Assembly (NCBI RefSeq): GCF_003345255.1
Contig: NZ_CP029331.1
Coordinates: 992,001 to 1,056,000 of the forward strand
DNA length: 64,000 nucleotides
Origin: Pseudothauera hydrothermalis
GTDB taxonomy: Bacteria; Pseudomonadota; Gammaproteobacteria; Burkholderiales; Rhodocyclaceae
Direction of reading: 5' to 3'
Part shown: positions 20,432 to 45,830 of the stretch, in pieces
Position numbering within the stretch: the first letter of the stretch is position 1
Layout of the letters: every line of letters begins with the position of its first letter
Program-made: the position numbers and the translations under genes
Notes under the pieces: model-generated
What the model saw: only the letters and a program-made list of their open reading frames with translations
The model's database searches: none
What the model was told of the DNA's origin: nothing

Positions 20432-20447
20432 CGGCACTACCATTGCT
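20432..20447 (+). promoter_or_regulatory. Sigma-54 promoter of flgB
   Basis: CGGCAC-N5-TTGCT, one mismatch from the TGGCAC-N5-TTGCA/T consensus, with the essential GG and GC dinucleotides correctly spaced. It lies 80 bases before flgB and would start the flgBCDEF transcript. Confidence 0.7.
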
Positions 20448-20527
20448 GGCATGGAAGGTGCTGTGGCGTCGATGCCGATGCCTGAGCACCGTATACGGCA
20501 GCCGGAACGCATTGATGAGGTGATGCC

Positions 20528-20932
20528 ATGAAAAATCTGCTCGACAACAGCTTGCGCGTCCATCAGGCGGCGCTCAACACTCAAGCGTATCGCCAACAGT
20601 TGTTGGCGTCCAACATCGCCAACGCCGACACCCCTCACTACAAGGCGCGCGACATCGATTTTCGCAGCGCGCTACAAGGGGTGCTCGATGGCCGCTCTGG
20701 CGCGCTGGCGCTGGCCACCACCGCGCGCGGTCACATGAGCGGTGTGCAGTCCAACCCGCTGGAGCGCTTCGTCAAGTATCGCCAGGAGCTTCAGTCCGCG
20801 GTGGACGGCAATACCGTCAACATGGACGTGGAGCGCGCCGCATTTGCGGAAAATTCCATTCACTACGAGGCCAGTGTGACCTTCATCAATGGTCTGTTGA
20901 GCGGTATGCAGCGCGCGATCTCGGGTCAGTGA
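20528..20932 (+). CDS. flgB: Flagellar proximal rod protein FlgB
   Basis: 134 residues. The N-terminal rod/hook motif reads RQQLLASNIANADTPHYKARDIDF and the C-terminal helix ends SVTFINGLLSGMQRAI. FlgB is a proximal rod component exported without a signal peptide. It is the first gene of the rod/hook transcription unit, behind a sigma-54 promoter at 20432-20447. flgC follows after 17 bases. Confidence 0.95.
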   Translation: MKNLLDNSLRVHQAALNTQAYRQQLLASNIANADTPHYKARDIDFRSALQGVLDGRSGALALATTARGHMSGVQSNPLERFVKYRQELQSAVDGNTVNMDVERAAFAENSIHYEASVTFINGLLSGMQRAISGQ

Positions 20933-35719: not shown

Positions 35720-36286
35720 TTACTGAATGATGAACGAGTTGAACAGCACGCCATGCACCGGCCCCCATGGAATGCCCGGACGGGGGTCGCGCGGCTCTTG
35801 GGCGCCCAGCGCTTCATTGACCTGCACCAGCACCTCGCGGGCGAGCTGTTCCCGTCCTTCCGTGGTGGAGACCTCGGACGGCTTTTTACTGGACAGCAAA
35901 AGATTGATGCGGTGCCTGATTTCGGGCATGAAGCCGTTTAGTTGCGCGCCCACGGCCGCGTCGGCAACCCGCAGCACAATGACGGTTTGCAGATAGTGGT
36001 CGGTTTCTTCGCGCGCCAGATTGACGGTAAAGGTGTCCAGTTGCACGAACACCGGTGGCTTGGATAGATCCACCGTCGGCGCCGCCTGCACCGCCGGGGC
36101 CGGGGCGGCTTCGGCATGGTCGTCGCCGCTGTTTTTGCCTTTGACCAGTAACAGCACCCCGACCAGCGCTACCGCGATCAACAATAGCAGCACCAAGACC
36201 ACCAAAATGATGATCAAAAGCTTGCTCTTTTTGGGGGCGGGTGCGTCAGTTGCCGCCACTTCCGGTTTTGCCGGCGCCTTGGCCAT
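35720..36286 (-). CDS. fliL: Flagellar basal body-associated protein FliL
   Basis: 188 residues: a basic N-terminus, one transmembrane helix (about 22-48, rich in Leu/Ile/Val) and a periplasmic domain with VQLDTFTVNLAREETDHYLQTVIVLRV and a C-terminal GVLFNSFIIQ. It associates with stators around the motor. The start ATG 36286 has AAGGAG, which lies at the foot of a strong predicted RNA hairpin linked to the fliK stop codon, so its translation may be regulated. Confidence 0.94.
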   Translation of the reverse strand: MAKAPAKPEVAATDAPAPKKSKLLIIILVVLVLLLLIAVALVGVLLLVKGKNSGDDHAEAAPAPAVQAAPTVDLSKPPVFVQLDTFTVNLAREETDHYLQTVIVLRVADAAVGAQLNGFMPEIRHRINLLLSSKKPSEVSTTEGREQLAREVLVQVNEALGAQEPRDPRPGIPWGPVHGVLFNSFIIQ

Positions 36287-36292
36287 CGTTTA

Positions 36293-36380
36293 CTCCTTTT
36301 TCATGCTTCGATTATCGGCGAGCGCGATTGAATCTGAAGCACGAAAAAGTGGGGCAGACGCACCCTTATTTCATGCTTCA
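36293..36380 (-). promoter_or_regulatory. Mutually exclusive RNA hairpins joining the fliK stop to the fliL start
   Basis: Three related arms in mRNA order: A (36380-36365, TGAAGCATGAAATAAG, beginning with the fliK stop TGA), B (36349-36335, CTTTTTCGTGCTTCA) and C (36310-36296, CGAAGCATGAAAAAG, running into the fliL GGAG). B can pair with C in 14 consecutive pairs including one G-U, or with A in 12 consecutive pairs including one G-U, but not both. B:C would hold the fliL ribosome-binding site at its base. No U-run follows, so translational control is likelier than termination. The effect is inference; the repeats are seen. Confidence 0.55.
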
Positions 36381-37622
36381 GGCAAAAATATCCACTAGAC
36401 CCTCGCCTTGCCGGGTCCATCCGGTGGCATGACCGATGCTGCCAAGGCCCGTCTCCGACGTCCAGCCCCAGCTCTGGCGTGCCTGCGGGTTGTGCGGCGT
36501 AGCGGTGTCCTGACCGCTGCGCTGATCGCCCGAGGTGTTGACACTGGTCTGCCCCAGGCTGACCCCGGATTGCGCCATCAACTCGCGCAGCCGCGGCATG
36601 GCCTGTTCCAGCGCTTCCTTGGCTTCCCGGGTGCTGGCCAGGAATTGGGCCGTGGCCTGGTCGCCATTGAGGTTGATCGACACTTCGATTTTGCCAAGGT
36701 TCGGCGGGGTGATCACCAGCTCTGCTTTGGATTCGCCGCGGTTGCTCATCCAGATGAGCTTGCTGCCGACATCTTCAGCCCAGCCTTGCTGCCCGAGCGG
36801 GGTTGCAACCTGCAACTGTGCGCCCGGCTGCAGCGGATGGGCGCTGCGTGGCGCCAATACGCCGTGCAGCGCGCTGGCAGGGTCGTTTTGCAGCGCTGCG
36901 ACTGCCTTGGTCGGGCCCTCGGGCACGGCGCCCGCCTTGGCGCCAAGGCCGGCCGGCCCCTGTACCGGCAGCGTTATCTCACGGTTGGCGCCGGGCGCCG
37001 CTTCGGCGAGGGTTGCGGTCTGATCGGCGAGCGCGTTTTGCACCCCTTTGCCGGCTTTGTCATCCGTGACGGCCAAAAGTCCCGCGCCTGCCTGGGGTTT
37101 GCCGGAAGGTCCGGTGTCTTGCAGCGCTTCGGCCTGTCCATCGGCAGCGGCGAGCAGCGCCTCGGCGTCTGCGGCCGGCAAGGGGATCGGGGCGGCAAGG
37201 GCTGCCGGTTGTGCGGCAACGCCGCTGCCGTCGGCGGCAGCTTTGCCGGCTTCGGCGTGCTCGGCCGGCTGCGCTTCCTTGCCGTCCGTGTTGGGGGCGG
37301 CGGACGTCGTGGAATCCTTGGCCGACGGGTCGCTGGGCGGTGCCGGTTCGGTGCGATCAGGCGTTTCTGAACTGCGCCGGGCATCGGGGCTGCGGCTGGA
37401 TTCAGTCTTGCGAACGTGGTCGGTGGCCGGCCGCTCGCGCGCTACCGAGGTGTCGCTCGGGCGTTCGGCGCTGCGATCCCGGGAGGCTGTCATACGGTTC
37501 TGCAAGGTCTGCGAAAAGTCCCCGGCTTGACTGCCATGACCGGCTTGAGGGGTCATGAAAGGCGGCAAGCCGGATGGCGCGGCGGTAGCGTACTGGGGTT
37601 GAAAGGTGAGCGGAGACGTCAT
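36378..37622 (-). CDS. fliK: Flagellar hook-length control protein FliK
   Basis: 414 residues. The first ~270 are Pro/Ala/Ser/Asp-rich and disordered, as in FliK rulers. The C-terminal substrate-switch domain (about 280-370) has ELVITPPNLGKIEVSINLNGDQATAQFLA and ALEQAMPRLRELMAQSGVSLGQTSV. It measures hook length and switches FlhB specificity. ATG 37622 is supported by the sigma-54 promoter 39 bases upstream; the open frame up to 37841 runs antisense-like into fliJ. First gene of the fliKLMNOPQR transcription unit. Confidence 0.92.
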   Translation of the reverse strand: MTSPLTFQPQYATAAPSGLPPFMTPQAGHGSQAGDFSQTLQNRMTASRDRSAERPSDTSVARERPATDHVRKTESSRSPDARRSSETPDRTEPAPPSDPSAKDSTTSAAPNTDGKEAQPAEHAEAGKAAADGSGVAAQPAALAAPIPLPAADAEALLAAADGQAEALQDTGPSGKPQAGAGLLAVTDDKAGKGVQNALADQTATLAEAAPGANREITLPVQGPAGLGAKAGAVPEGPTKAVAALQNDPASALHGVLAPRSAHPLQPGAQLQVATPLGQQGWAEDVGSKLIWMSNRGESKAELVITPPNLGKIEVSINLNGDQATAQFLASTREAKEALEQAMPRLRELMAQSGVSLGQTSVNTSGDQRSGQDTATPHNPQARQSWGWTSETGLGSIGHATGWTRQGEGLVDIFA

Positions 37623-37660
37623 GGTGGCTGACCTCTTGGGTTTTGTCTGCCAACCAATCG

Positions 37661-37676
37661 AGCAAGTGGTGTGCCA
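37661..37676 (-). promoter_or_regulatory. Sigma-54 promoter of the fliK operon
   Basis: Minus strand TGGCAC-N5-TTGCT, a perfect match, in the short gap between the fliJ stop (37694) and the fliK start. It would drive fliKLMNOPQR independently of fliFGHIJ. Confidence 0.85.
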
Positions 37677-37693
37677 GTCCTGCCGAAATGTTG

Positions 37694-38143
37694 CTAGTCG
37701 TCTGCCTTGCCGGGGAAGCGGCGGGCGGCGTGCTCGTCGGACAGCCGTTGTTCCTGCCGCGCTTCGGCGCGCAGCGCTGCGCTGCGTTGGCGCTGGGTCA
37801 GGGTGTCGAGGGCCTTGACCTTGTTGCGGTGGTTGATCCACACCTGCTGGCCTTGAAGGGTGAGCTGCCGGGATTGCTCCACCAGGCCGCGTTGCGCAGC
37901 GATGGCCTCATCGATTTTGGCCAAGAAAGCGCTGTAGTTGCGCCAGGCATCCGGGCCAATGCCGCTGGCCGCAGCTTGCAAGAAGCGTTGCTGATACTCG
38001 TCGCGATAACTTTGCAGCATCTCGAGCTTGCGCTGACCTTCGGTTTCGCTGGCAATCAGCGCCCCCAGCCGGCGGGCGGCGTCATCCAGGCGCGTCTGCA
38101 TCAGTTCGAGCAGAGGTTGTAGCGGAGATGTCCTGTTCAACAT
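37694..38143 (-). CDS. fliJ: Flagellar export chaperone FliJ
   Basis: 149 residues forming a continuous antiparallel coiled coil rich in Gln, Arg and Ala, with YRDEYQQRFLQAAASGI near residue 55, as in FliJ. FliJ couples the FliI ATPase ring to the export gate. ATG 38143 (MLNRTSPLQPLLELMQ) is chosen; the frame runs 12 codons further without support. Last gene of the fliFGHIJ unit. Confidence 0.9.
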   Translation of the reverse strand: MLNRTSPLQPLLELMQTRLDDAARRLGALIASETEGQRKLEMLQSYRDEYQQRFLQAAASGIGPDAWRNYSAFLAKIDEAIAAQRGLVEQSRQLTLQGQQVWINHRNKVKALDTLTQRQRSAALRAEARQEQRLSDEHAARRFPGKADD

Positions 38144-43053: not shown

Positions 43054-43130
43054 GCTGGATTCCTGTTGCAGTCCCTTTGACGGATGCCGGGATTGTCTGC
43101 CTACAGGCGCAACATCAATGTTTGGAAAAG

Positions 43131-43145
43131 CGGCATTTTTTGCCG
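43131..43145. promoter_or_regulatory. Candidate FlrC enhancer between fliF and flrB
   Basis: Perfect palindrome CGGCA-TTTTT-TGCCG (extended by one more pair, G/C, on both sides). It lies about +17 to +31 relative to the start predicted from the fliF -24/-12 site, the same side and similar distance as the copy at flagellin 2. As RNA it also makes a small hairpin followed by UUUU in the fliF direction, so an attenuation role is possible. Confidence 0.45.
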
Positions 43146-43173
43146 CCTGTTTGCCGGTTACCATACACTGTGG

Positions 43174-43221: not shown

Positions 43222-44403
43222 ATGCCCAATACCGCAGCTTCTGCCGATTCCGATCGATCGGTGCCGCGCACGGCAGCCGAGCGGGGCGCAGCGCGCCTGG
43301 ATGCGGCGCAACTGGCCGAAGCCTTCCAGTTGTTCAGCCGGGCCTCGGAAGAGCTTTCACAGGCTTACAAAGCCTTGCAGGGCCGGGTCGAGCAGCTGAC
43401 CGAACGCTTGACCGTGCTGATGGGCGCACTGCCTGCCGGCGTGGTGGTACTGGATCGCACCGGCACCTTGGTGCAGGTCAACCGCGCCGCCGAGGAACTG
43501 CTTGGCACCGGTATCACCGGACAATCCTGGAAGCAGGTGGGAGCGGCATTGCAGGCCACCGAAACCCCGGGGGAAATGAGCGTGGAACTGGCCGACGGTC
43601 CGCGCCGCCTGTCGGTGTCGGAGACCGCGCTGGAGTCCGGCGACGAGCGCATCGTCTTGTTGCATGACATTACCGAAACCCATCGCATGCGTCTGACCGC
43701 CGAGCGCAACGAGCGCCTCGCCGCCATGGGGGAGATGGTCGCCGGTCTGGCGCACCAGCTACGCACCCCGCTGGCAGCGGCTTTGCTCTACATCGGCAAT
43801 CTGCGCCAGCCCGAACTTGGACCGGCCGAACGCCTCAAGGTGGCCGATCGCGCCATCGAGCGCATGCGCTATCTGGAACGGCTGATCCGCGACATGCTGC
43901 TGTTTGCCCGCGGCGACAGTCTGGGGCGACAGTATTTCAGTGTTTGCGAGCTGAGCGCTGAGCTGGCGCATACCCTGGAGCCGGTGGCACGTGCGCGGCA
44001 GATCGAATTCACCAGCCGCTGCGACTGCGGCGACACGGAACTGCATGGCGACCGCAAGGCGCTGGCCGGCGCGCTCACCAATCTGCTGGAAAACGCCATT
44101 CAGGCGACCGAACCGGGCGGACGTGTCGACTGCCATGTCGGTCAGCTAGGGCAAGACATCGTGTTTACCGTCCGCGACACCGGGCGCGGCATCGAGCCGG
44201 CTTTGCAAGCGCGGCTGTTCGAACCCTTCTTCACCACCCGGGCCGAGGGCACCGGCTTAGGCTTGGCAATTGCCCGCGGCGTGGCGCGTGCACACGGCGG
44301 CGACATCACCCTGCAGTCTTCGCTCGGCAAGGGCTCCACCTTTGTGCTCACCGTCCCGCTGCCGACCGAGGGCGCAGACGCAGACGGCAAGGTCGTACCA
44401 TGA
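43222..44403 (+). CDS. flrB: Sensor histidine kinase FlrB (FleS family)
   Basis: 393 residues, cytoplasmic (no transmembrane helix). An N-terminal helix-rich part (20-68) precedes a PAS domain (about 68-150, MGALPAGVVVLDRTGTLVQVN). The HisKA box is VAGLAHQLRTPLAAALLY (His178). The HATPase_c domain has LLENAIQATEPGG, VRDTGRGI and GTGLGLAIA. It phosphorylates FlrC, whose gene overlaps it by ATGA. It is divergent from fliF across a 168-base region. Confidence 0.93.
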   Translation: MPNTAASADSDRSVPRTAAERGAARLDAAQLAEAFQLFSRASEELSQAYKALQGRVEQLTERLTVLMGALPAGVVVLDRTGTLVQVNRAAEELLGTGITGQSWKQVGAALQATETPGEMSVELADGPRRLSVSETALESGDERIVLLHDITETHRMRLTAERNERLAAMGEMVAGLAHQLRTPLAAALLYIGNLRQPELGPAERLKVADRAIERMRYLERLIRDMLLFARGDSLGRQYFSVCELSAELAHTLEPVARARQIEFTSRCDCGDTELHGDRKALAGALTNLLENAIQATEPGGRVDCHVGQLGQDIVFTVRDTGRGIEPALQARLFEPFFTTRAEGTGLGLAIARGVARAHGGDITLQSSLGKGSTFVLTVPLPTEGADADGKVVP

Positions 44404-45830
44404 TCGAACAACTCAACATCCTGGTCGTTGAAGACGATGACGCATTGCGTGACGCGGTGTGTTTCACCCTGGAGATGGCTGGCCACGGCGTGACCGGCGT
44501 CGATGGCGGACCGGCGGCGCTGGCCGAACTGGAACGCCAGTCCTTCAATCTGGTGATTACCGACTTGCGCATGCAACCGTTGGACGGCCTGCAGGTGCTC
44601 GGCGAGGTGCGCAGCCGTCAGCCGCATGTGCCGGTGTTGCTGATGACCGCCTACGGCGACGTGGACAAGGCTGTTGCTGCGATGCGCGGCGGCGCCTGCG
44701 ATTTTCTGATGAAACCGTTCGAGCCCGAAGTGCTGCTCGAGCATGTGCGCCGCTACGCCGCGGTACCGCCTGCCGCCGATGACACCATTGCCGAAGACCC
44801 GCACACCCGCAATCTGCTGGCGCTGGCTGCACGGGTGGCCGAAACCGATGCCACGGTACTTTTGACCGGCGAGTCGGGCACGGGCAAGGAAGTGTTTGCG
44901 CGTTATATCCATCACCACTCGGCGCGCGCGCGCGGCGCCTTTGTGGCCATCAACTGCGCGGCGATTCCTGAGAACCTTTTGGAAGCTACGTTGTTCGGTT
45001 ACGAAAAAGGCGCATTTACCGGCGCGCACAGCGCCCAGCCCGGTAAGTTCGAACAGGCCCAGGGCGGCACCATTTTGCTCGACGAGATTTCCGAAATGCC
45101 GCTCGGGCTGCAGGCCAAGCTGCTGCGCGTGCTGCAGGAGCGCGAAGTGGAGCGGGTGGGCGGCAAAAAACCGGTGGCGCTGGATATCCGTGTGCTGGCC
45201 ACCAGCAACCGCGACATGTTGCGCGAAATTGCCGCCGGCCGTTTCCGTGAAGACCTGTACTACCGCCTCAATGTGTTTCCGTTGGCGATTCCGGCGCTAC
45301 GCGAACGGCCGGGCGATGTGCTGCCGCTGGCCCGCCATTTTCTGGCCCGTCACGGTGAGCGGTTAAAACGCCAGGCGCATCTTTCTCCCGCGGCCGAAGC
45401 CCTGTTGCAAGCCTACCACTGGCCCGGCAATGTCCGGGAGCTGGAAAACACCATGCACCGGGTGCTGATTCTGACCGCCGGCGACAGCGTGTTGCCCGAA
45501 ACCATCCGGCTGTGCCTGCCGCACTGGCATGGCGAGGCCGCGTCGCGGTCGCCGCAGGCGAATGCGCAGACCGCTGCGCAGCCAGTGGCCATGAGCGCGC
45601 CGCCGCCCGCGACAAGTCTGCCGGCAAGTTTTGCCGCCGCGGCCTCATCCGCGCCGCCTGTGTCGCCGCCGCGGCCGGCCAATATGAAGGATCTGGAGCG
45701 CGAGCACATTCTGGCAACATTGCGCGAGTTTGGCGGCTCCCGCAAGAAAACCGTTGAAAAGCTTGGAATTTCCGAACGTACTCTGCGCTACAAGCTGCAG
45801 CAGTATCGCAAAGAGGGATACGAGGTCTGA
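44400..45830 (+). CDS. flrC: Sigma-54-dependent response regulator FlrC (FleR family)
   Basis: 476 residues in three parts: a receiver (1-120, Asp55 as phospho-site, VVEDDD acidic pocket); an AAA+ sigma-54 activator with Walker A GESGTGKE (157-164), the sigma-54 contact loop GAFTGA (204-209) and RLNVFPLAIPALRERPGD; and a C-terminal Fis-type helix-turn-helix ending KTVEKLGISERTLRYKLQQYRKEG. A Pro/Ala-rich linker of ~50 residues precedes the DNA-binding part. It should activate the sigma-54 promoters found across this locus. Confidence 0.95.
   Translation: MIEQLNILVVEDDDALRDAVCFTLEMAGHGVTGVDGGPAALAELERQSFNLVITDLRMQPLDGLQVLGEVRSRQPHVPVLLMTAYGDVDKAVAAMRGGACDFLMKPFEPEVLLEHVRRYAAVPPAADDTIAEDPHTRNLLALAARVAETDATVLLTGESGTGKEVFARYIHHHSARARGAFVAINCAAIPENLLEATLFGYEKGAFTGAHSAQPGKFEQAQGGTILLDEISEMPLGLQAKLLRVLQEREVERVGGKKPVALDIRVLATSNRDMLREIAAGRFREDLYYRLNVFPLAIPALRERPGDVLPLARHFLARHGERLKRQAHLSPAAEALLQAYHWPGNVRELENTMHRVLILTAGDSVLPETIRLCLPHWHGEAASRSPQANAQTAAQPVAMSAPPPATSLPASFAAAASSAPPVSPPRPANMKDLEREHILATLREFGGSRKKTVEKLGISERTLRYKLQQYRKEGYEV

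Follow-up and report, generated by a model that had tools for sequence, protein, structure and literature searches.

The fliK-fliL junction and its inverted repeats

The window, by which we mean the whole 64-kb stretch of DNA analysed, carries its fli genes on the minus strand, which is also the strand of the fliK-fliL mRNA. By Pfam, genes for FliG and FliF lie upstream of the junction, and the genes that follow fliL in its operon encode FliM, a FliN-like protein, FliP, FliQ and FliR; the parts of the junction are collected in Table 1. At E 0.001 a 221-nt query from the fliK-fliL gap found no match in the genome other than itself, and a mobile or repeated element was rejected on this ground; positions 36100-36600 gave no Rfam match up to E 1.

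Table 1. Features of the fliK-fliL junction and of a related layout upstream of fliF (positions in the window)
Feature	Position	Strand	Comment
fliK	36378..37841	-	PF02120; start codon as in the listed ORF
fliL	35720..36286	-	PF03748; ATG 36286-36284
fliK stop TGA	36380-36378	-
fliL Shine-Dalgarno AAGGAG	36298-36293	-
Arm A	36369..36380	-	first letters are the fliK stop codon
Arm B	36336..36349	-	complement of A and C; shares bases with the -35-like hexamer
Arm C	36296..36309	-	complement of B; start of the putative fliL leader
Putative FlhDC box	36336..36379	-	9+9 of 28 consensus positions
Left half-site of putative box	36379-36364	-	holds most of arm A
Right half-site of putative box	36351-36336	-	holds arm B; 12-bp spacer between half-sites
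-35-like hexamer TTCAGA	36333..36338	-	from the sigma-70-like promoter scan
-10 element GATAAT	36311..36316	-	exactly 19 bp past the putative box
Second box and -10 layout, upstream of fliF	43092..43159	-	box 20/28, spacer 11, 19 bp, GACAAT

The sequence-only reading had described three related arms in this gap, A, B and C, able to form two mutually exclusive hairpins, and all of this was borne out. B:C consists of 14 consecutive pairs (36349-36336 with 36309-36296; 13 Watson-Crick and one G-U), and A:B of 12 with one G-U, arm A being 36380-36369, or 13 if a flanking C-G is counted. Folds of different lengths showed one hairpin or the other, A:B being preferred at 93 and 112 nt and B:C at 131 nt, where the z of the whole fold was only -1.7. 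Folded as separate pieces, A:B reached -24.7 kcal/mol (z -6.2) and B:C -24.0 kcal/mol (z -4.8), and in neither case did any of 200 dinucleotide shuffles do as well. The short ATGAAA frames reported in A and C are real in this genome but, by eye, are absent from A and C of the other 21 of 22 aligned sequences.

A probable FlhDC-dependent promoter of the fliL operon

We consider it very probable (about 0.82) that the gap provides the fliL operon with an FlhDC-dependent (class 2) promoter, as suggested by a box-like sequence, its fixed spacing to a -10 element, a second copy of this layout at fliF and co-occurrence with FlhC among relatives. Arms A and B would each supply one half-site of an FlhDC operator, and FlhDC bound there would recruit sigma-70 polymerase to the GATAAT downstream and so activate the operon. 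The main fliL mRNA would then start in arm C, at a predicted position near 36304, and would carry neither A nor B. Since A and B would be half-sites of one operator they are palindromic and read-through RNA folds, and hairpin A:B in such RNA would be a by-product of the operator.

Both flhD and flhC are encoded in the genome. Against the FlhDC box consensus of PMC9962212, AAYGSSNNAAATAGCG-N10-12-CGCTATTTNNSSCRTT, the fliL site scores 18/28 with a spacer of 12 (p 0.06 in this genome alone); the same paper counts fliLMNOPQR among the FlhDC targets of E. coli. We dropped the E. coli consensus as a proof by itself: a plain-consensus scan of the window found 8 placements that outscore the fliL site, itself one of 29 with its score, and shuffled windows reach plain box scores of 19-20. 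The specific signal is only the box plus a -10 at fixed distance. Scanning both strands of the window for a box scoring at least 18 with a -10 at 18-21 bp returned just two sites, one preceding fliF and the other preceding fliL, each with 19 bp between box and -10; six base-shuffled windows gave one match in total. A separate scan of 36000-36700 (701 nt) for sigma-70-like promoters found one site, TTCAGA-16-GATAAT, where shuffles averaged 0.1, and the -10 of this sole site is the same GATAAT that the box layout uses.

The fliF copy of the layout is present in 5/6 genomes of the genus. Its box is the palindrome AACCGGCAAACAGGCG..CGCTTTTCCAAACATT, centred on a striking GGCAAAAAATGCC core. Neither flgA/flgB nor the 80 kb surrounding flhDC gave a match scoring at least 18; of the box and -10 matches scoring 17, one fell within that 80 kb and a further two in the window. 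A sigma-28 promoter, suggested by the motif GCCGATAA, was also considered and dropped, as many relatives have GGATAAT, CATAAT or CTGATAAT.

Divergent from fliF, at 43222-45830 (+), lie a histidine kinase and a response regulator with a sigma-54 interaction domain, a pair which we take to be FleSR-like; FlhDC thus coexists here with a sigma-54-type regulator gene that adjoins fliF. Upstream of a flgB-like rod gene at 20528 (PF00460), TGGCATGGAAGGTGCT at 20447-20462 (+) fits the consensus of a sigma-54 -24/-12 element, and no FlhDC box with a -10 was found upstream of that gene. This suggests that the flg and fli operons are under split control.

Box and -10 across relatives

For the family sample 96 loci were tried and 92 fliK-fliL gaps extracted. 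Many of these share a common plan: the fliK stop is followed by an inverted repeat and, some 17-21 bp on, by a hexamer resembling ATAAT; a short leader then precedes the Shine-Dalgarno (SD) sequence and the fliL start. In several genera the inverted repeat reads nearly as an FlhDC box, the best scores in the family being 24/28 in genome G243, 23 in G223 and 22 in G066. In 67/92 gaps the best box placement starts at a distance of 0-4 nt from where the fliK stop codon begins; also in 67/92, a -10-like hexamer follows the best placement by 8-28 nt. Box scores were better than those of dinucleotide shuffles at p <0.05 in 39/92 gaps, a few of these boxes lying elsewhere in the gap. Between the half-sites, the spacer sequence GGGGC-NGCTCT-GCCCC (36352-36365) is strongly conserved in part of the family, although the FlhDC consensus leaves it free.

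FlhC was searched for in 80 of the 90 family genomes, four being left out for lack of an extractable gap and six as redundant. The layout test took the best placement, with no score cut-off, and asked for the -10 pattern NAYAMT 18-22 nt on. The layout was found in 54/68 FlhC-positive and 0/12 FlhC-negative genomes (Fisher 1.6e-7), or by genus in 20/27 and 0/9 (1.2e-4), a contrast that partly reflects gap length because several FlhC-negative gaps are too short for the layout. It was missing in 14/68 FlhC-positive genomes, three of which have boxes scoring 18-21 with a -10 outside the pattern. Outside the family, at a score of at least 17, the layout occurred in 6/29 FlhC-positive genomes and 0/41 others, with a step of 18-19 bp; four genomes with weak FlhC-like matches were counted as negative, and the genomes scored as lacking the layout, 23/29 of the FlhC-positive ones among them, include any whose gap was not located.

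From these comparisons the fliK-fliL junction likely carries an FlhDC operator in relatives of Thauera and Azoarcus, and box, 19 bp, NAYAAT is a usable spacing rule for these bacteria. Among the open-licence papers listed in literature searches, none indicates by its title or abstract opening an FlhDC box at fliK-fliL in Rhodocyclales.

The inner hairpin of A:B could alternatively be read as an intrinsic terminator of the fliK transcript, a GGG..CCC stem followed by CACTTTTTCG whose GGGGC/GCCCC is kept in part of the family. We think this quite unlikely: the five-T run is not kept in most relatives, and one terminator-like site was found where 1.0 was expected by chance. A terminator, including that of an attenuator, was rejected on this count.

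Covariation of A:B and B:C

The sequence-only reading had proposed an attenuator or translational switch, and had offered compensating changes in relatives as the check. Several sets of sequences were used. Swap tests drew on 60 or 63 rows defined by the -10 pattern; the sliding-window and upstream-leader interaction tests used the 61 rows (19 genera) in which the start codon was found. Alignment A3 held 58 of these 61 rows, chosen by length and not for B:C, and alignment A2 held 22 rows picked mainly from genera with a visible B:C.

The check came out positive for B:C and negative or weak for A:B. On the 58 sequences A:B pairs in 72% of cells, and its covariation of 0.150 compares with 0.136 in shuffles, 58/500 of which were as high; two cruder counts were each reached by 1/500 shuffles. 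On the 22 sequences the values were 0.129 and 0.117 (99/500 as high). Own A:B energies had no clear advantage over those swapped between genera (z -1.2; strand-neutral z 0.1). Such scant covariation is what would be expected of an operator, because the palindrome follows a fixed consensus.

B:C pairs in 66% of cells of the 58 sequences, with a covariation of 0.309 against 0.213 in shuffles (0/500 as high) and at most 0.100 in slid controls. On the 22 picked sequences RNAalifold chose the B:C helix, with double changes in four of its pairs, and also gave three GGG/CCC pairs that lie centrally in A:B. Joint changes in B and C are seen in several genera (CGCTTCG/CGAAGCG, CGCTTGG/CCAAGCG, CAATTGG/TCAATTG). 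Own B:C pairs beat genus-swapped pairs at z -4.7, with 0/2000 permutations as good, and reversed and antisense controls gave no signal. The only mildly positive neighbouring segment was B with the fliL codons (z -2.0, 54/2000); B:C without its SD part likewise reached only z -2.0 (58/2000). When a window of the same geometry was slid along 430 nt the sole peak fell at B:C (z -4.5), values elsewhere running from -2.4 to +1.7.

About six of the 20 genera account for the signal, since dropping the best genera in turn weakened z to -2.8 after three and to -0.9 after six. In the home genus B:C clearly beats shuffled leaders in only 2/6 genomes (G000 and G005). A strand preference, judged by G-U against A-C cells, was not seen for B:C: the counts were 50 vs 29, the 10 vs 2 of the strict core being non-independent, and a looser alignment gave 76 vs 87. 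These G-U counts are uninformative because A:B itself gives 83 vs 28 and 5/6 slid controls lean to G-U. The fliF promoter has no consistent counterpart of B:C (1/5 loci with p 0.04, the others 0.29-0.99).

On these comparisons B:C is a real coupled inverted repeat, whether at the level of RNA, DNA or mutation, and its covariation is left unexplained by the operator reading. An arm pair that evolves like a real stem is a modest new lead.

What B:C may do

Under the switch as proposed, a ribosome at the fliK stop would open A, B would then pair with C and fliL translation would drop. In this genome each of the two hairpins folds and competes with the other, B:C covaries, and masking A raises the predicted B:C pairs from 11.9 to 15.0. 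Placing a ribosome on the stop, however, raises predicted accessibility of the fliL ribosome-binding site (RBS) here from 0.64 to 0.73; A:B shows no clear covariation, and only two of the six genus members have a B:C clearly above shuffled leaders. A direct test of RBS hiding, taking at most four rows per genus from the 61-row set, was also null, as own upstream RNA hid the fliL RBS no better than foreign RNA (lower in 10/19 genera, mean difference 0.004). We therefore regard the switch as very unlikely. The FlhDC operator mostly displaces it, with A:B lacking clear covariation and no terminator above chance, and the idea that FliL is tuned to FliK translation by RBS hiding finds no support. 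There is a caution in this: once transcribed into read-through mRNA, a palindromic operator mimics the hairpin of a riboswitch.

B:C is probably a hairpin of the fliK read-through mRNA whose loop contains the promoter, and it may shape or shield the leader or provide weak coupling. One possibility, which we hold only tentatively, is that B:C closes the RBS in read-through mRNA alone, while mRNA from the internal promoter, having no B, gets translated. The geometry fits, with the -10 in the loop and B upstream of the putative start, and a precedent exists in phage T4 (PMC3014915). The predicted unpaired fraction of the RBS is 0.66 in long and 0.99 in short mRNA here, with means of 0.44 and 0.59 over the 61 loci, but longer RNA pairs more anyway. 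Own upstream-leader interactions average -9.0 against -7.1 for swapped ones (1/5000 permutations as low; reversed control z -0.09), and in some genera, such as those labelled g73 and g27, another upstream arm pairs the SD and AUG. Set against this are the null result over 19 genera and the position of the helix: the best B:C core helices reach at most into the first part of the SD, and in g69 and g58 the core helix stops ahead of the SD.

In six of eight g73 loci (L028, L033, L034, L041, L044 and L049) the other upstream arm is GCGATCTTCC-like and pairs with both the fliL SD and the start codon, and the predicted RBS accessibility is 0.18-0.26 in five of the six and 0.45 in L033.

Equally plausible, and also a tentative proposal, is that quasipalindrome template switching, a mutational process, keeps B:C without any function. 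Multi-base blocks differ jointly in both arms between genera, there is no excess of G-U over A-C beyond that of A:B and the slid controls, and template switching can make and mend stems according to PMC8794818. The single peak along 430 nt and the lack of a consistent counterpart at fliF (1/5 loci, p 0.04) argue against it.

Arm C could also act at the DNA level, as one more half-site bound by FlhDC or by a different regulator. It resembles A and B, and a strand-neutral measure of B-C coupling (z 5.3) equals the RNA energy measure in strength. Under one protein, however, A should track the lineage-specific letters of B, and A:B has no such coupling; by inspection, the polarity and spacing of B to C are also unlike those of an FlhDC box. 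We judge this improbable.

Combining the FlhDC promoter with an RNA hairpin around it gives a further proposal, in which the promoter-proximal half-site would double as the 5' arm of a covarying leader hairpin. These shared bases would mark the origin of an mRNA, promoter or read-through, and the two would be handled differently. This, the boldest reading left standing, we regard as speculative and rather unlikely.

Comparison with known systems

Attenuators and translational coupling switches likewise have two alternative hairpins with one common arm. The fliK-fliL junction differs from them in having no supported terminator, in ATGAAA frames that are not kept in relatives, and in an A:B without clear covariation.

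The class 2 promoters of E. coli, fliL among them, are described in PMC9962212 as having 16-bp inverted half-sites with a 10-12 bp spacer upstream of the promoter. The layout of the putative half-sites, the target operon and the position of the site at the fliK-fliL junction are alike. In contrast to E. coli, the half-sites here drift from the consensus (18/28), the putative box overlaps the fliK stop codon, and an additional arm, C, can pair with the half-site nearer the promoter.

For the T4 genes e, soc, 49 and I-TevI, PMC3014915 describes a hairpin close to the start codon whose upstream portion contains the promoter. As in those genes, only read-through mRNA would be able to form the hairpin. 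The setting here is instead a bacterial operon, the core helix extends at most into the first part of the SD, and selective hiding of the RBS is unsupported. If true, the reading that sets the promoter within a hairpin would make the fliK-fliL junction the equivalent, in a bacterium, of what is seen in phage T4.
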